From positions 1 through 37,229 of the IMG/VR virus record IMGVR_UViG_3300049489_000379: DNA of 37,229 nt; one strand, 5' to 3'. The notes under the pieces were generated by a model. The model saw only the letters and a list, made by a program, of their open reading frames with translations, did not search any database and had not been told where the DNA came from. Of the stretch, positions 4,221 to 20,078 are shown one piece after another. A program made the translations under genes and the position numbers. Source of the stretch: a virus. Each line of letters begins with the position of its first letter. Position 1 is the stretch's first letter.

Positions 4221-6455
4221 TTAAGTTGTCACCCCTGTAATTTGAGCGTTTCGAAATTCAATCGCGTCACTAATTTTTCGAACCAAAGAGTCAATGTAAG
4301 AGTCGTCGGCTTGTACGTCGCCGTTTATGATTGTGGTAGTACCACCCGACACTTTCGAGTCAATGCTTTGAAGTAAAGCTATCATTTCGGAATCACTTCC
4401 CCCGCCCCCACCAACGGCGCCCACAACGTCATTGAAATTACGTTTAGGCACCACAAGCTCGCCCGGTTCAAGTAAAGCGGGCACGCTATCACGCCCCGGA
4501 ATACCGCCGGTAATTAAACCCCCGTCGGCGGCGGCGGTGACTTGGCTTATTCGCTCGGCGCCAAACGCAACGGCGGCGGCGGCACCCGCAACACCAAGTG
4601 CCGGCCCGATGATCGGTATTGTTGAAAAGCCTTTATAAATATTTAGGGCACTTTCAGCCGTGCCAATGGTGATTTGCGCAACGGCCGCAACCTTACCAAT
4701 TGATTTCAAAGTTGAGTTTTTAGATTGCTGTAATTGCACAAGTTCGCCGGCCGCACTCTTCGCCCCTTGAACCTCTTCCGACCCTAAAATTTTTGAAAGG
4801 GTTGCGGCGGTCGTGCCGTATTTTTTTTGCTCTAAAAGAAATTTATTGTTGGCCTCAATTTTTAAACGTAGCTTTTCCTCTTGAAGTTGACGCTCAATAC
4901 TTAGTTCGGTGGCCGAGCTTGCTTGAAGTTCGGCAAGTTTAGCTTCGGTAAGCACCGCCGTGTTTTCGATTCCAAGTGCTGCGTTTTCGGCCGCAATGTC
5001 GGCTTGTACTTGCGCAAACGACGCTTTACGTTCAAGGTCTTCGGCGTTTTGTATTTCTTGTTGTTCTTTAATTAAATTGTACCGCTCTTGGTGGGCGGCC
5101 AATTGGTCGCCGGTAAAACCTTGGTCAAGAGCTTTTAATGCTGCAATTTCTTTTGTTTTTAAATCAATAGTTTCAGCACTTGCGTTTTGATTTTGTAGTT
5201 TTAAAAGGTCAATTTCGGCTTTTCTAATATTTCGCAAATTCGCTTGGTGTTGGGCTTCAATTGCCGCCGCTTTTGCCGCCGCTTTTTCTTTGTCAGCATT
5301 TTGAGTTTGTAGTTCTTTTTCTTGCTCTTTGGTGGTTTCTCGAAAGGAAGTGACGGCCGCGTCTTTTGATTTACCAAACGACCCTTTTATTTCAGCAAGC
5401 CCGGCTTTCAAAGTTGATAAATCAAGGTTAAATGCCCCCGACAAAACTTTGCCCAAGCCCCCAAAAAGTTCGGCCATTAAAGTGATTGCACCCTTTGTTG
5501 TGGCGACAATGCCCGCCCAAATGGTATTCCAATTTAAAGCAAGAAAAGTAATTGCTGCGACAACCGCCGCAATGGCAAGCGGTATGCCTAAAAAAGCGGC
5601 ACTCATTGAAAGCCCGGCCGCCGTGGCCGCCGCACTTAGCGCAAGAAACGCCGGCACCAAAACGGTAATGCCGGTCACTAGTCCGGTGATAACAACACCA
5701 ACGGTCAAAAGAATAGCCGCAATTTGTTTGAGCGTTTCACTTTGTGAAATTGCGTCGAAAAAAGAAATCGCAATTTGTCTTGCCGCCGCAAACGCCGGCG
5801 CAAATCTTGACCCGATAGCTTCCTGAAAATTACCAAATGAAGTGGCAAGGGCTTTTGTGTACCCGTCGGCTTTATTGAACTCTTCGGCGAGGCCGCCGGC
5901 TTTTTGCCTTACGAAATCCAAAACCGTCGCCATGCGCTCGGCTTCGGTGGCGCCCTCACGAATTACCAAGCCTTGCTTTGCAAAAGCATTGGTGCTTGTG
6001 CCTATGGTGCGGGCAATCTTTTCGGCGGCGCCGTCAAGGTTGCCACCCATTGAAGCCGACAAATCGGCAATGGCAAAGGTCAAGTCTTCGGTGATTTTTG
6101 TTTGACCTAAAAAGGTTTGCGCAACCGCTTGCGCTTGAATAATTGCGTCGTTATCAATCCCGGTTTTTGCTTGAACCGCATCGGCAAAAGATTTGTATTG
6201 GTCTTCGAGTTCTTTGGTGTAAATGCCTTGGTTTTGAAGGGCGTTATTTAATTGCACCGAAGCGCGCTCGGCCTCTTCAAATGCTTTTACCGATAAAAAT
6301 ATTTCAGCACTCAAGGCCGCAAAAGCAATACCCGAAACCACCGCAACGTTTTTTAAACTTCCTTCCAAATCACTTGTTTGGTCGCGAATATCGTCAAAGG
6401 CTTTCGTAACGTTCTTGGCGTCCGCGTTTATCTTTATCAGTAAATCGTCAGCCAT
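4221..6455 (-). CDS. Tail tape measure protein
   Basis: This 744-residue protein acts as the internal ruler of the tail and is ejected with DNA. It is the longest late gene of the central tail block and lies right after the tail assembly chaperone, as is typical. Residues 1-80 are helical with short heptads. The segment near 110-190 (AVAQTFLGQTKITEDLT, ASMGGNLDGAAEKIARTIG) matches the usual N-terminal tape measure core. Around residues 235-320 there are long hydrophobic alanine- and isoleucine-rich stretches likely to form transmembrane helices. Residues 370-560 are a charged coiled coil rich in K, E, Q and A. The C-terminus has a GGGGGSDSE linker. The ATG lies inside the last codons of the upstream gene (8-base overlap). 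Confidence 0.93.
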   Translation of the reverse strand: MADDLLIKINADAKNVTKAFDDIRDQTSDLEGSLKNVAVVSGIAFAALSAEIFLSVKAFEEAERASVQLNNALQNQGIYTKELEDQYKSFADAVQAKTGIDNDAIIQAQAVAQTFLGQTKITEDLTFAIADLSASMGGNLDGAAEKIARTIGTSTNAFAKQGLVIREGATEAERMATVLDFVRQKAGGLAEEFNKADGYTKALATSFGNFQEAIGSRFAPAFAAARQIAISFFDAISQSETLKQIAAILLTVGVVITGLVTGITVLVPAFLALSAAATAAGLSMSAAFLGIPLAIAAVVAAITFLALNWNTIWAGIVATTKGAITLMAELFGGLGKVLSGAFNLDLSTLKAGLAEIKGSFGKSKDAAVTSFRETTKEQEKELQTQNADKEKAAAKAAAIEAQHQANLRNIRKAEIDLLKLQNQNASAETIDLKTKEIAALKALDQGFTGDQLAAHQERYNLIKEQQEIQNAEDLERKASFAQVQADIAAENAALGIENTAVLTEAKLAELQASSATELSIERQLQEEKLRLKIEANNKFLLEQKKYGTTAATLSKILGSEEVQGAKSAAGELVQLQQSKNSTLKSIGKVAAVAQITIGTAESALNIYKGFSTIPIIGPALGVAGAAAAVAFGAERISQVTAAADGGLITGGIPGRDSVPALLEPGELVVPKRNFNDVVGAVGGGGGSDSEMIALLQSIDSKVSGGTTTIINGDVQADDSYIDSLVRKISDAIEFRNAQITGVTT

Positions 6456-7169
6456 TTTTTACGCGCCTTTCGTAAAGTCTTTTAAGTGCTTGCTCTTCGA
6501 GTAACTTGTCGGTTTTTTCGTCAAAACCTTGTGGCTCTTCACCATTATTTAACGACATAAATAAAAATTGTTCAAGGCTTGGAAGGTCTTGCCCCTGATA
6601 AAGTCGATTTGACAAAACCGCGTAGTACAAATCGACTAGGTCGGCTTTACCTATGACTTGAAGTAAGCCCCGCACTTGGCGCATGGTCATGTCTAAAAAA
6701 TACTCGGGCGTACACCAAGCGTAACGACTCGCTAACGAGTCAAAGATTTCGCCCCAATTTTCTTCGACTTTTTTTTTGAGGCGTCGGGGGGAGTGGCCGC
6801 CGGCGCTTGGTGCTTTTTCATTTCGTCGGTGATTTTTTTCATTTCAGGTTCGCCAATACCGACGGCACCGAGCAAAGCTAAAATGACATTTAATTGGTCT
6901 TGCATAGATGAAATGGCGTCAAGAAATTCGTCTTTGGTTTTAAATTGTTCTTTGTCTTTGAGCATAAAAAAAGCGATTTCGGCAATTTCAGAAATCTTTT
7001 GTTTTTGAAAAATCTCGCCTAAACCCCCGGCGGTGTACTTTTCAACCGCCCACGCGCGCACGCGCAGTGACCACCGCCCCAAGGTAATTTTTACACCCGG
7101 CATGGTCGAAAGCTCGAAAGCCGTTTCTTTTGGTACCAAATCGAGTAGGTTTAAGGGCATAAAGCTCAT
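6448..7169 (-). CDS. Tail assembly chaperone, -1 frameshift fusion product
   Basis: This is the long form of the two-product tail assembly chaperone (lambda gpG-gpGT type), about 240 residues. The ribosome would read the short form to the run of nine A residues, slip back one base on A AAA AAG (6768-6774) and continue as KVEENWGEIFDSLASRY, then CTPEYFLDMTMRQVRG and onward to the stop at 6448. The downstream frame has no good start before the slip site, and the join gives a continuous domain of the pattern W-x3-F-x2-L-x3-Y, which is typical of the T half. The downstream tape measure gene overlaps the end by 8 bases. An internal ATG at 6690 in the shifted frame could yield an 80-residue piece, but I judge the fusion far more likely. 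The frameshift itself is inferred from sequence. Confidence 0.85.
6726..6741 (-). other. Hairpin downstream of the slip site
   Basis: The minus strand carries GACTCG-TTAG-CGAGTC, a perfect 6-bp stem with a 4-base loop that contains the zero-frame UAG stop. It lies about 26 bases after the slippery heptamer. That is farther than the usual stimulatory structure, so its role is uncertain; it may slow ribosomes near the zero-frame stop. Confidence 0.45.
6732..7169 (-). CDS. Tail assembly chaperone, short form
   Basis: This is the zero-frame product, 145 residues, ending at the TAG at 6732. It has a compact alpha/beta N-terminal domain (FELSTMPGVKITLGRWSL), then helices and a lysine-rich tail DASKKKSKK at the slip site. 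It lies two genes after the major tail protein in transcription order and just before the tape measure, the standard location. I chose the ATG at 7169; a frame-open GTG at 7247 would add 26 residues but lies inside the promoter region of the divergent island. The ribosome site before 7169 is weak, and a second ATG at 7160 is possible. The gene is separated from the upstream tail genes by four opposing genes and a terminator, so it may need its own promoter. Confidence 0.85.
   Translation of the reverse strand: MSFMPLNLLDLVPKETAFELSTMPGVKITLGRWSLRVRAWAVEKYTAGGLGEIFQKQKISEIAEIAFFMLKDKEQFKTKDEFLDAISSMQDQLNVILALLGAVGIGEPEMKKITDEMKKHQAPAATPPDASKKKSKKIGAKSLTR
6768..6774 (-). promoter_or_regulatory. 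Slippery heptamer A AAA AAG for -1 frameshifting
   Basis: On the minus strand the chaperone reads TCA AAA AAA AAG TCG. The last seven bases of the A run plus G form A AAA AAG in the zero frame, the most shift-prone bacterial -1 heptamer (as in E. coli dnaX). A -1 slip on it leads exactly into the open frame of the downstream chaperone half. The zero-frame stop lies 34 bases downstream. Confidence 0.85.
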
Positions 7170-7219
7170 GTTTGATTTAGGCCACAAATCCCGATTTGGT
7201 ACAAGGTAAATAATATTTA

Positions 7220-7248
7220 TTGCTTTTGTACGACAAACGTGGTACACT
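7220..7248 (+). promoter_or_regulatory. Candidate sigma70 promoter of the plus-strand island
   Basis: TTGCTT at 7220-7225 and TACACT at 7243-7248 are separated by 17 bases, a good match in spacing to sigma70 promoters. It lies 48 bases before the first gene of the counter-oriented island. The word GTAC occurs three times between 7228 and 7253 (7228, 7242, 7250), overlapping the spacer and -10, and may be an operator. A tandem TTAG triplet (about 7259-7270) follows in the leader. The assignment is by eye. Confidence 0.5.
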
Positions 7249-7295
7249 GGTACGTTATTTAGTTAGTTAGGCCAGAGTAACCGGGAGCAATACGA

Positions 7296-7526
7296 ATGAA
7301 AAATCAAAATCGAACTTACCAATGCGACGTTCAAACCCCAACGGGTCAAGTGATTCGCACAACGGCCAAAAAGGTTGGCCGCTCTTGGCTTGTTGGCGGT
7401 GACTTTTCAAAAGCCACAACCGATTTAGGCGGCAAAATATTTATTTACATTGACGGCAAAATTTATTTGTTAAAAGGTTGCGTTTTAAAATTTCAAGACT
7501 ACGAAAAGGAAGTGGTGAAAATATGA
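7296..7526 (+). CDS. Hypothetical 76-residue protein of the late-region island
   Basis: This is the first gene of a plus-strand cluster that runs against the late operon. The protein is small and probably all-beta: a short N-terminal segment with one cysteine (YQCDVQTPTG), a WLVGGDF turn, and IFIYIDGKIYLLKG hairpins. A ribosome site GGGAG lies 8 bases before the ATG. The stop overlaps the next start as ATGA, so the two are coupled. I do not recognise a family. Position next to a dedicated promoter suggests an accessory (moron-type) gene, not a virion part. Confidence 0.7.
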   Translation: MKNQNRTYQCDVQTPTGQVIRTTAKKVGRSWLVGGDFSKATTDLGGKIFIYIDGKIYLLKGCVLKFQDYEKEVVKI

Positions 7527-7669
7527 ATAAACAAAAACAAGACGAACGCGAGTGCGATTGCGGCGAGTGCCGCCTTTGCCGCGCGTATTTACTAAGCGAC
7601 GACGATTCAAACCAACCGTGCCCACGCTGCAACGGCGGCGGTTGTGGCAAATGCGAAGAGGGCGAGTAA
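7523..7669 (+). CDS. Cysteine-rich zinc-ribbon-like mini-protein (48 residues)
   Basis: The ATG at 7523 overlaps the previous stop. The protein has eight cysteines, arranged C-x-C-x2-C-x2-C in the first part (CDCGECRLC) and C-x2-C-x4-C-x2-C in the second (CPRCNGGGCGKC). The second half resembles the CxxCxGxG zinc-binding repeats of DnaJ-type zinc fingers. Eight such residues could bind two metal ions. It is acidic between and after the cysteine groups (DDD, EEGE). The stop TAA is followed with no gap by the next ATG, so it is part of the same transcript. Function is unknown; a protein- or nucleic-acid-binding adaptor is a reasonable guess. Confidence 0.65.
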   Translation: MNKQKQDERECDCGECRLCRAYLLSDDDSNQPCPRCNGGGCGKCEEGE

Positions 7670-7843
7670 ATGAAACCTAAAAAATATTTGCGAACCCATA
7701 GGCTTGAAGTGCGAGTCGACCAAACCGAAATGCAAGAAATAATTGCGAAGAGTCATTTGTATGCGCGGGGGAGTGTTAGCGATTTCGTTCGCCTCGCTTG
7801 CTTGAACTATCGACCAATTAAAAAAGTGAAGGTGGGCAAATGA
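7670..7843 (+). CDS. Ribbon-helix-helix-like small protein (57 residues)
   Basis: The frame starts with the ATG directly after the previous TAA and ends at TGA 7841-7843, overlapping the next ATG by four bases. The sequence has the layout of an Arc/MobC-type ribbon-helix-helix protein: a basic start (KPKKYLRTH), a short strand RLEVRVD, a helix TEMQEIIAKSHLYA, a glycine turn RGS, and a second helix VSDFVRLACLNY. In this fold the strand of a dimer reads the DNA major groove. It is a good candidate for the regulator of its own island promoter, where repeated GTAC words occur. The family assignment is by pattern only. Confidence 0.65.
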   Translation: MKPKKYLRTHRLEVRVDQTEMQEIIAKSHLYARGSVSDFVRLACLNYRPIKKVKVGK

Positions 7844-8094
7844 AAAAACCAATTTCGTTTGGTGTTGATAAGATCGGCCCGACCGACCAACAAATAGAAA
7901 ACGCCGTTGCCACGGCGAGTAAGTTAATGGCCGAAAAGCTCGACGCTTGGATTTTGGGGCAATTAACTCTTGAGCAATTAGAGAATTGCGTTAAACAATT
8001 TCAAGCCGAAATCGAAAAACGAAATTCGTCAGTCAAAATATTAGGCACTTGCGACGCCGTTATAAATGGCAAACCCGTAAATTTGAAACCCTAA
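7840..8094 (+). CDS. Hypothetical helical protein (84 residues)
   Basis: This last gene of the plus-strand island begins with ATGA overlap to the ribbon-helix-helix-like gene; GGTGGGC precedes the start. The predicted protein is mainly helical (QQIENAVATASKLMAEKLDAW, then LGQLTLEQLENCVKQFQAE) with a short C-terminal beta tail (CDAVINGKPVNLKP). No domain is recognised. The stop at 8092-8094 lies just before a hairpin that terminates transcription coming from the other direction, so the island and the upstream late genes are insulated from each other. Confidence 0.6.
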   Translation: MKKPISFGVDKIGPTDQQIENAVATASKLMAEKLDAWILGQLTLEQLENCVKQFQAEIEKRNSSVKILGTCDAVINGKPVNLKP

Positions 8095-8121
8095 AATAAA
8101 AAAGGCGGCAATAATGCCGCC
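8088..8121 (-). terminator. Rho-independent terminator after the major tail protein
   Basis: GGCGGCA (8104-8110), loop ATAA, TGCCGCC (8115-8121) form a perfect 7-bp GC-rich stem. On the minus strand it is followed by TTTTTTATTTT, a good U tract. It would stop the late transcript from the capsid and tail-tube genes before it enters the opposing island. On the plus strand no T run follows. Confidence 0.8.
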
Positions 8122-8146
8122 CGCGCCTTGAAATTGTAAACAATTT

Positions 8147-9028
8147 CTATGAAGGCAAAATATGACGAATAGTGAAAACCCGGTCAAGACTTGAATCATA
8201 CAAGCAAGACATTTTAAGTTCGGGTTGTGAAAATGCTTGCTCTTCCATATTGATCGGAAGACCGCCGCCGACACAATTGTGCGCGTCGATTTCAAACATT
8301 TCGCCCGTTGCTCTTTTTTGTGAAAGTAGTAATGCGCCAAACGCCGGGAAGGTGTCGGTTGATTTACCCACAACAATTGAACTTGATTTGGTGCTTGGTG
8401 GCAATACTTCAAACGTTGCCGTGTCGCCGGTAACAAATGCCGTTGCACTTGCGCCGCCGGTAAAGCGTAAACCAAGGCTTGCCACGTCGCTATTTGCGCC
8501 CGTTGCAACGCCGGTTACCGTTGCCACTTCAAGAGTGTCGTCGGTGTAAGTCGCATCGGTGCCGCGAGCAATGTCAATGTCAGATAACAAGTAAACTTTG
8601 AAAGCCGTTGCGCTTGTCGCCTTGATAACATATTTACCAAACTTCAAATTTGCGGCACCCGTTGACGGTATAACTATTGGAGTTAAAACGCCCGTTGCGG
8701 CTATCATTGAAGTGCCTAGTTTATTCGCAGCGGTTGAAACCGTGCCGGCCGCGTCAACACCAACGTCGGTCACCGTTGAACCTAAAAAGAGTGAAAATAA
8801 AAATCCTGGGTAGGCTTTTACTTTTGCGGTAAGTTCGGTTGAAACCGTTTTATTTTCAGCCGCCCATGCGTATTTATTTGAACCTGCATAAAGTTGTTCA
8901 AGGTCGGAAGACAAAGCTAAATTTGCGCTTCCAATGACTTTTAAAATCCCGTAAGGCATACCGTCGGTACGCGAATAAGGCGATATTGAATGAATCCCGT
9001 AAATAATTCTTGGGTCGGAAAGTGACAT
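8147..9028 (-). CDS. Major tail protein (tail tube)
   Basis: This 293-residue protein lies after the tail terminator and before the chaperone block, the usual place of the tail tube subunit. The N-terminus (DPRIIYGIHSISPYSRTDG) and the tube-like segments LKVIGSANLALSSDLEQLY and NKTVSTELTAKVKAYPGFLFSLFLG are typical of major tail proteins that begin with a description of their antigenic beta sandwich. A threonine-, alanine- and valine-rich central part (about residues 90-215) could be an added surface domain. It is followed by a strong terminator, consistent with a gene expressed at high level. Assignment to tube protein is from context plus overall look. Confidence 0.78.
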   Translation of the reverse strand: MSLSDPRIIYGIHSISPYSRTDGMPYGILKVIGSANLALSSDLEQLYAGSNKYAWAAENKTVSTELTAKVKAYPGFLFSLFLGSTVTDVGVDAAGTVSTAANKLGTSMIAATGVLTPIVIPSTGAANLKFGKYVIKATSATAFKVYLLSDIDIARGTDATYTDDTLEVATVTGVATGANSDVASLGLRFTGGASATAFVTGDTATFEVLPPSTKSSSIVVGKSTDTFPAFGALLLSQKRATGEMFEIDAHNCVGGGLPINMEEQAFSQPELKMSCLYDSSLDRVFTIRHILPS

Positions 9029-18885: not shown

Positions 18886-19022
18886 AACCGCTTGCCCCTT
18901 TGCCGCCGCTTACCATATGCGGACTAGTCAAACGCCTTTTCGGTTAGTTGTAAATAAAATAAATATTGTTTTATTTTGAAACGGTCTTGACACCGAGTAC
19001 CGGGTTTGCAAGCCTTGGTGGT
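18886..19022. promoter_or_regulatory. Divergent AT-rich promoter region between late operon and sigma cluster
   Basis: This 137-base region separates the minus-strand late operon from the plus-strand sigma cluster. Its central part is very AT-rich (about 18945-18980, many AAATAA and TTATTTT words) and could hold divergent promoters. No single sigma70 match is convincing. A promoter for the phage ECF sigma factor would be expected on the minus strand here, but I see no repeated motif that proves it. Confidence 0.45.
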
Positions 19023-19325
19023 ATGAAGCCTTTTGAAGACATGCCACCGCTGCGCCGGGAGCTTTACCACCAAATCATAAATGGTGAAAAAGACTTTCAT
19101 CCCATTACCCTAAGACTTCATTTTTTAAACGTCCATTTTCCCATTGACAAGTTAAATCTTGTTTTAATGTGGCTTGTCAAAAATAATATAGTCGGCGAGA
19201 CTTTCGTCAATTGGTTTCGAGTTTATTGTCATAACTCCGATTTAGAAATGCACGCCAAACTTTTAATGGTGGCCGAAAATGCTCCACTTGCGCCCGTTGT
19301 GGCGGGAAAGAATATCAGACTATGA
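19023..19325 (+). CDS. Hypothetical protein upstream of the sigma factor
   Basis: From ATG 19023 it has 100 residues (KPFEDMPPLRRELYHQIING, then ITLRLHFLNVHFPIDKLNLV and LMWLVKNNIVGETFVNWFRV). It looks mainly helical, with several W, F and H residues. The stop overlaps the start of the next gene as ATGA. The frame is open upstream to a TTG at 18966 (119 residues); neither start has a good ribosome site, so the N-terminus is uncertain. It shares a transcript with a small membrane protein and the sigma factor. I do not recognise a family. Confidence 0.6.
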   Translation: MKPFEDMPPLRRELYHQIINGEKDFHPITLRLHFLNVHFPIDKLNLVLMWLVKNNIVGETFVNWFRVYCHNSDLEMHAKLLMVAENAPLAPVVAGKNIRL

Positions 19326-19612
19326 AAGAAATCATTGGCGACCTTTCACTAAACACTTTGGTCATTTCGGGCGTGATAGCAATTGCCGCTTGGTTTTTAA
19401 AAGGTGTCGCTTGGGCGCTCGCTGAAATTGGTAAGAGTTTAATTGCCCACGTTGTGAATCTACTCGGTAAGATTTCAACCCTTGACGCAAAAATGTCAGA
19501 GCTAACGCACGCAATGGGCGACATACAAAAGATGCGCGGTGACGTAAACGAGTTTTATAAACGCCTTCGAAAACTTGAGCTTGAATTTGAAAACCAACCA
19601 AAGCACAACTAA
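19322..19612 (+). CDS. Small membrane protein with coiled coil
   Basis: This 96-residue protein has a hydrophobic helix at about 12-35 (LVISGVIAIAAWFLKGVAWA) followed by an amphipathic stretch and a coiled-coil-like C-terminal half (MSELTHAMGDIQKMRGDVNE, then FYKRLRKLELEFE). One membrane span with a cytoplasmic or periplasmic coil is the simplest reading. It is coupled to its upstream neighbour by ATGA, and its last 38 bases overlap the likely start of the sigma factor gene. A membrane-anchored partner of the sigma factor (anti-sigma-like) is conceivable, but no anti-sigma motif is seen. Confidence 0.65.
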   Translation: MKEIIGDLSLNTLVISGVIAIAAWFLKGVAWALAEIGKSLIAHVVNLLGKISTLDAKMSELTHAMGDIQKMRGDVNEFYKRLRKLELEFENQPKHN

Positions 19613-20078
19613 ACTTGTCGAAACATATTACCCCTACGTTTTAAAATACCTTTTACGCTTTACGAAAGGCGACTTGTCTTTGTCGGAAGACATAGCCCAA
19701 GAGGCCGCGCTACAAGCCCTTTTAAAAGCCCCAATGCTTCGTGACCTAAAACATTTTAGAAACTGGTTTGTTAGCATTGCCCTCAACATGGCGCGCAATG
19801 ATTTCAGGCGCAGTAAGTGGCGAAGCTACGACAACCCCGAGCATTACCCCGCACTTACTTGTGGGCGCGATTTCGAAACCGAATACGCTGCAAAAGAAAC
19901 CCTCGCCCAAGTGGCCGCCGTTGTCGCGACGTTGCCCCCCAGACAACACCAAGCGTTTGAGCTAAGGGTTGTCGAGGGCTTGCCGTTTATCGACGTGGCC
20001 GAAATAATGAATTGCCCCTACGACACCGCGAAGGCCAATTGCCGGCACGCCCTAAATAAAATTAAAGCCGGTCAATAA
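19575..20078 (+). CDS. ECF-type RNA polymerase sigma factor
   Basis: This 167-residue protein has the two-domain layout of a group IV (ECF) sigma factor. Region 2 covers about residues 13-82: LVETYYPYVLKYLLRF, then SEDIAQEAALQALL and FRNWFVSIALNMARNDFRR. Region 4 covers about 108-166: LATLPP-like VVATLPPRQHQAFELRVVEG, then DVAEIMNCPYDTAKANCRHA, a helix-turn-helix with the typical T-A-K-x-x-x-x-R-A-L recognition helix. It would redirect host RNA polymerase, plausibly to the late operon that starts across the divergent region. The start is one of several TTG codons near 19575-19587 inside the upstream gene. Its end overlaps by seven bases with the convergent HNH gene. Confidence 0.88.
   Translation: MSLNLKTNQSTTKLVETYYPYVLKYLLRFTKGDLSLSEDIAQEAALQALLKAPMLRDLKHFRNWFVSIALNMARNDFRRSKWRSYDNPEHYPALTCGRDFETEYAAKETLAQVAAVVATLPPRQHQAFELRVVEGLPFIDVAEIMNCPYDTAKANCRHALNKIKAGQ

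Follow-up and report, generated by a model that had tools for sequence, protein, structure and literature searches.

Arc and Mnt are ribbon-helix-helix (RHH) proteins. In phage P22, they are the repressors of the ant moron (immI), a unit of variable content that precedes the tailspike gene within the late operon, encodes Ant as well, and has been suggested to influence expression of the downstream tailspike (PMC2629481). The term moron is used here as defined previously (PMC2629481, PMC6316719). The Aca repressor of acr-aca operons binds an inverted repeat located within the core promoter (PMC9410906), and MobC of RA3 autoregulates its own operon (PMC4175270). Of these systems, the P22 ant moron is, by analogy, the nearest precedent for the locus described here, in which an RHH gene is found between tail-tube and chaperone genes. 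No description of an RHH gene at this position was found in the open-access literature.

The window, meaning the whole stretch of DNA that was analyzed, is a 37,229-bp IMG/VR virus record and is organized like a tailed, siphophage-like virus, with the packaging, portal, protease, and tail genes on the minus strand and most replication genes on the plus strand. The terminase and portal are only about 25–35% identical to those of isolate phages, and searches of 50,697 isolate phage records with the island, the major tail protein, and the tape measure protein found no relative at the DNA or protein level. The island comprises four plus-strand ORFs (A to D, 7296–8094) joined by short stop/start overlaps or direct abutment, and these are located, as the initial annotation had described, between genes for a major tail protein and a chaperone. 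The tail-tube or major tail protein (MTP; 8147–9028, minus strand) precedes the insertion site in the late direction. MTP had no Pfam or PHROG match above noise and was named for its position ahead of the chaperone and tape-measure genes; it served as the anchor for more than 80 syntenic relatives. On the other side is the divergent gene for a tail assembly chaperone (TAC1; 6732–7169, minus strand, ATG at 7169 or 7160), a homologous ORF to which precedes the tape-measure gene in most relatives. TAC1 is followed by a TAC2-like small gene (6448–6690, minus strand), syntenic in the relatives L002 and L003, and by the gene for the tape measure protein (TMP; 4221–6455, minus strand; PHROG 3336, 4.7e-10). 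We consider it probable that the island is a self-regulated, counter-transcribed cassette, in which a presumably autorepressed RHH chassis carries swappable cargo and splits the late tail operon.

A second counter-oriented plus-strand cluster occurs in the window at 18966–20078. The last gene in this cluster (19575–20078) codes for a factor of the sigma-70 family in which regions 2 and 4 are recognized (Pfam PF04542 and PF08281). This gene was absent from the 19 relatives searched, and a phage sigma factor was for that reason rejected as the source of the conserved promoter described below.

The conserved core of the cassette is gene C (7670–7843, plus strand), which encodes a protein of 57 amino acids. 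C matches the NikA-like family of Pfam (PF21983) at 29.1 bits, above the curated cut-off of 27, and the NikA-like profile is matched by 26 of 36 members of the C family (E 0.01); the family had no match to a helix-turn-helix (HTH) family. The AF2 monomer model of C (pLDDT 87.6) has two helices and an N-terminal segment, with the strand not formed. The best structural matches to this model are nearly all RHH proteins (ArtA, CopG, AtaR, Arc, and NikR, with ArtA-DNA and CopG-DNA included), and the MazE antitoxin is also among them. For a protein of 57 residues, low structural scores are to be expected, and those obtained were a Foldseek E of about 1 and a VIA Z of at most 5.9. Computationally, C is thus placed in the RHH family as a predicted DNA-binding protein, in agreement with the earlier suggestion that one of the four products is RHH-like. 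The RHH consensus had a single weak, chance-like match among isolate phages, and the RHH alignment was too divergent to be used as bait in viral contigs.

With MTP as bait, 13 and then 80 relatives were collected, plus two from genome bins. Clade relatives were present in bins labeled Paceibacterota (L092, MAG contig) and Spirochaetia (L093, MAG contig), labels for which binning may mislead. A profile search located a C homolog in the MTP/TAC1 gap in 65 of 78 evaluable loci, a fraction that is descriptive, as the loci include near copies (72 different MTP sequences), and the homolog was always on the strand opposite to the tail genes. Interruption at this junction, which the initial annotation had regarded as rare for late tail genes, is the norm in this clade. 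The other 13 loci have no RHH gene, and in most of these MTP leads straight into TAC1, with a stop-to-start distance of 0–135 bp. Presence of the RHH gene requires six changes on the MTP tree, as compared with 12 when labels are shuffled, and RHH identity tracks that of MTP (r=0.49) and TAC (r=0.55), with none of 2000 permutations as high. The RHH gene has therefore been inherited mainly with the backbone. The gap is shorter than 400 bp, with room for the RHH gene alone, in 32 of 58 RHH-bearing spans. Rather than having been inserted at random, the RHH gene belongs to the basic make-up of this phage group. Its conserved role is probably regulatory.

The remaining three genes are variable. Gene A (7296–7526, plus strand) encodes a β-rich protein of 76 amino acids; its model has six predicted strands (pLDDT 68) and is too uncertain to assign a fold, with structural matches that are scattered. 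The dN/dS of A is about 0.12 in comparison with its relative in L094, which points to a real gene under purifying selection. Gene B (7523–7669, plus strand) encodes 48 amino acids, eight of which are cysteines, and has a 60% identical relative in L095; its product is probably a zinc ribbon. Gene D (7840–8094, plus strand), a putative gene recognized as an ORF, would encode a helical protein of 84 amino acids and overlaps C through an ATGA; it had no relative in viral contigs. Matches of D to HmpF and MTase_II were far below cut-off or marginal, look like helix noise, and were rejected. For A, B, and D there was no Pfam match above cut-off, nothing usable in NCBIfam, PHROG, or PADLOC, and no toxin family. 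The small overlapping genes, along with the RHH antitoxins AtaR and MazE among the structural matches of C, would suit a toxin-antitoxin module with an RHH antitoxin, but such a module is very improbable, given that none of the three proteins matches a toxin family and that the RHH gene has no constant partner and stands alone in many loci.

A comparison of synteny found that the four genes are not shared as a set among relatives. Even L002, with an MTP 89% identical to that of the window, lacks A, B, and D and carries another 76-amino acid gene next to its RHH gene. Other cargo is found in about a dozen loci and includes small cysteine-rich proteins; a related pair of proteins of 69–75 amino acids constitutes cargo in L070 and L077. 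This pattern points to A, B, and D as exchangeable cargo around C. Cargo in three sister cassettes has a lipobox-like N terminus (L022, 4043–4477, L029, 7205–7663, and L086, 6936–7370 (minus strand)), which is of a kind often found in superinfection exclusion. At the MTP/TAC1 junction of L055, the cargo is a glycosyltransferase of family 9 (heptosyltransferase-like; 7041–8210, minus strand, 1.3e-10). The lipobox-like and heptosyltransferase-like cargo would be compatible with a part in superinfection, and it is only the variable cargo that host interference or superinfection control could concern.

A candidate promoter for the cassette, TTGCTT-17-TACACT, is located at 7220–7248 (plus strand), with TTGCTT at 7220–7225 and an extended -10 element (TGG-TACACT) at 7243–7248. 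This promoter, proposed in the initial annotation, was read from the sequence and was not among the predictions of a generic promoter scan. In L094, TTTACT-17-TACACT lies ahead of gene A, inside a 68-bp stretch that is 82% identical to the promoter region of the window. Such conservation of promoter and flank is better evidence for the predicted cassette promoter than is the consensus match. At the far end of the island, where a terminator of the late transcript had likewise been proposed, we found a predicted intrinsic terminator of the MTP transcript, GGGCGGCATTATTGCCGCC-TTTTTT (8122–8103, minus strand, -15.1 kcal/mol); no terminator on the cassette strand was listed near 8094–8150. In 65% of the 46 RHH-bearing loci, a strong terminator (-9 kcal/mol or better) follows the MTP stop at a distance of no more than 90 bp, versus 0.4% of shuffles. 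With a terminator after MTP, transcription of TAC1-TMP must depend on leak-through or on its own promoter. A weak candidate for a TAC1 promoter, TTGTCG-15-TATTAT (7209–7235, minus strand), is predicted in the window and overlaps the operator described below. Across loci, sigma70-like promoters on the two strands that face out from the dyad region are in modest excess over shuffles (10/45 and 7/45 beat all 20 shuffles, with ~2 expected).

The putative RHH operator is the dyad TTTGT-ACG-ACAAA (7225–7237), located in the spacer between the -35 and -10 elements of the cassette promoter and ~60 bp upstream of the TAC1 ATG. A stricter form of the dyad, TTGTNNNACAA, has a single occurrence in the window (7226–7236). 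Because the dyad lies in the promoter spacer, a protein bound to it would be expected to exclude polymerase. Dyads of this type emerged from a scan, carried out with no prior motif, for any trinucleotide dyad with 0–12 bases between its arms upstream of TAC1 in 46 de-duplicated loci. Among the 832 patterns scored, the top rank went to TGT-N3-ACA (z 8.0) and the next to TGT-N4-ACA (z 7.3), versus a z of 3.8 for the best of 200 shuffled sets; these two patterns were present in 15 and 14 of the 46 loci, respectively, as compared with 1.4 and 1.6 in shuffles. The dyads are mostly 53–85 bp before the TAC1 ATG and sometimes form tandem pairs 10–13 bp apart; they are 22 times denser upstream of TAC1 than elsewhere in these loci. 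Their distance to TAC1 is kept even where the RHH gene begins 130 bp farther away. The dyad is absent from all 12 RHH-less loci examined, though little intergenic DNA exists in these loci to hold one, and 17 of the 46 loci are missing an exact TGT-N3/4-ACA, many of these having near matches. A GTAC repeat was also considered as the operator and was rejected, as it was not above chance. In L048, L056, L064, and L072, the start of the RHH gene and the dyad are 130–200 bp apart, and the intervening sequence, which has runs rich in C and in T, appears to be non-coding.

The center of the dyad appears to vary along with the RHH protein. Position 4 of the β-strand is the RHH column that best predicts a shared dyad center (distant pairs, 35 loci, p=0.0005, 2000 permutations), a result that emerged from a column-by-column scan in which phylogeny was only partly controlled and in which position 4 was second best in a looser operator set. 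The inward neighbors, strand positions 3 and 5, had no signal for the dyad center, and an earlier covariation test over the whole β-strand was negative. By our own alignment, we take position 4 to be equivalent to Asn11 of Arc, a base-contacting residue. Glu at this position occurs with ACG/CGT-like centers (the window, L067, L075, and L077), Gly or Ala with TTA, and His with GATC.

The cassette was also found in L094 (IMGVR_UViG_3300049489_000282), a 41.9-kb phage contig that has no MTP relative. The relative of A in this contig is 88% identical in protein and 90% identical in DNA. An operon of five small adjoining genes, A included, extends over 4721–5748 of L094; its last gene is a divergent RHH gene, and the operon is flanked by minus-strand accessory genes. 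The L094 RHH protein is 31% identical to C. Beside this different RHH protein is the dyad TTTGTGCCACAAA, the arms of which, TTTGT and ACAAA, are as in the window, whereas its center is GCC as opposed to ACG. That A, the promoter, the dyad, and an RHH gene occur together in L094 indicates that the cassette also moves between phages.

These observations bear on two alternatives. One is that the dyad serves some other factor, either a host regulator or a promoter element, and that C acts elsewhere. The TTGT half can also function as a -35 element and the exact dyad is missing from some loci, as this alternative would allow, but we consider it improbable, since the dyad is missing where the RHH gene is absent, its center covaries with RHH position 4, L094 pairs a different center with a different RHH protein, and the sigma factor of the window itself is not conserved in relatives. 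The second alternative is a plain moron, that is, a mobile cargo unit for host interference, superinfection exclusion, or anti-defense that entered repeatedly at this junction, with C as just its autorepressor. Presence of the cassette in the unrelated phage L094, turnover of cargo between phages 89% identical in MTP, and the lipobox-like and glycosyltransferase 9 cargo are what such a unit would produce; we nevertheless regard it as rather unlikely, because C is kept in many loci without any cargo and is mostly inherited with the backbone. The initial annotation had described an accessory (moron) unit, and part of this description stands, namely independent expression (from a predicted promoter), absence of virion homology, variation in presence and absence, and mobility, with A and the promoter recurring in L094. 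The part that does not stand is that of an odd island, since the RHH gene is near-universal, often alone, always counter-oriented, co-inherited, and tied to a dyad by TAC1.

In the self-regulated cassette that we favor, a dimer of C would bind the dyad TTTGTACGACAAA within 7220–7250 and would repress its own operon, with A, B, C, and D made in a burst until C accumulates. The terminator would uncouple TAC1-TMP transcription from MTP, this transcription would start from the shared divergent region, and bound C may also tune it. The targets of the cargo proteins A, B, and D might be the host or rival phages, by analogy with the cargo of morons and acr-aca operons.

A different emphasis is that C mainly governs when, or in what amount, the TAC1-TMP-tail-tip transcript is made, independently of MTP, and that the cargo is incidental. 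The frequency with which the RHH gene is alone in the gap is consistent with this, as are the fixed position of the dyad relative to TAC1, the strong terminator that accompanies the RHH gene, the co-inheritance of that gene with MTP and TAC, and, in many loci, a sigma70-like TAC1 promoter having its -35 element near -45 and the dyad just upstream. Weighing against it are the 13 loci that do without the RHH gene, several loci in which the distance between the dyad and the predicted TAC1 -35 element downstream of it is too great for simple repression, the weakness of the TAC1 promoter in the window, and the location of the L094 cassette away from any such tail junction. We judge this emphasis to be possible but to fall somewhat short of an even chance.

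We tentatively suggest, as a broader view that we hold with less than even confidence, that a dedicated RHH switch is conserved across a large clade of uncultivated siphophages. This switch would divide the late tail operon, setting the chaperone and tape-measure half apart from the tail-tube half, and would combine a readable specificity code (strand position 4 versus dyad center) with a docking place for anti-host cargo. Whether or not this broader view holds, the MTP/TAC1 junction is a predictable landmark in this phage group. It marks a cassette, probably self-regulated, in which the variable genes are candidates for a function against the host or in superinfection. Aca proteins have served as bait for anti-CRISPRs, and the RHH regulator may be usable as bait for cargo genes. 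With dozens of naturally occurring RHH/operator pairs, the loci also lend themselves to study of specificity change in the RHH fold, and they make regulation within a tail operon, which is usually drawn as a single transcript, open to test.

The cassette can be compared with each of the known systems. Like morons, it is a presumably independently expressed unit between morphogenetic genes, with its own predicted promoter, is present or absent between neighboring genes of relatives, and appears from its variability to be of a non-virion nature. Unlike morons, its core gene is near-universal and co-inherited in the clade, and no terminator was found on the cassette strand. With the NikA/MobC plasmid accessory proteins (PF21983), it shares a Pfam family, a predicted RHH fold, and a precedent for autoregulation. 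It differs from these in being embedded in a virion operon, and no relaxase was found among the 20 larger window ORFs scanned, on which ground a conjugation origin was considered and not favored. As in acr-aca operons, small variable cargo shares its operon with a conserved gene resembling that of an autorepressor, an inverted repeat lies in the core promoter (here the dyad at 7225–7237 in the -35/-10 spacer), and there is dispersal between unrelated phages. However, the ten Aca families are HTH proteins, whereas the cassette regulator is an RHH NikA-like protein; no cassette cargo is a known Acr, and many loci retain the regulator with no cargo. The P22 ant moron and the cassette are both variable late-operon units with RHH repressor genes (putative in the cassette), absent in some relatives and with gene content in flux. 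They differ in that P22 has the antirepressor ant and an antisense RNA, for which no counterpart was recognized in the cassette (A, B, and D being without a Pfam match above cut-off). They also differ in phage type and insertion point, with the cassette positioned at MTP/TAC1, its RHH gene often the sole gene, and its putative operator of the form TGT-N3/4-ACA.
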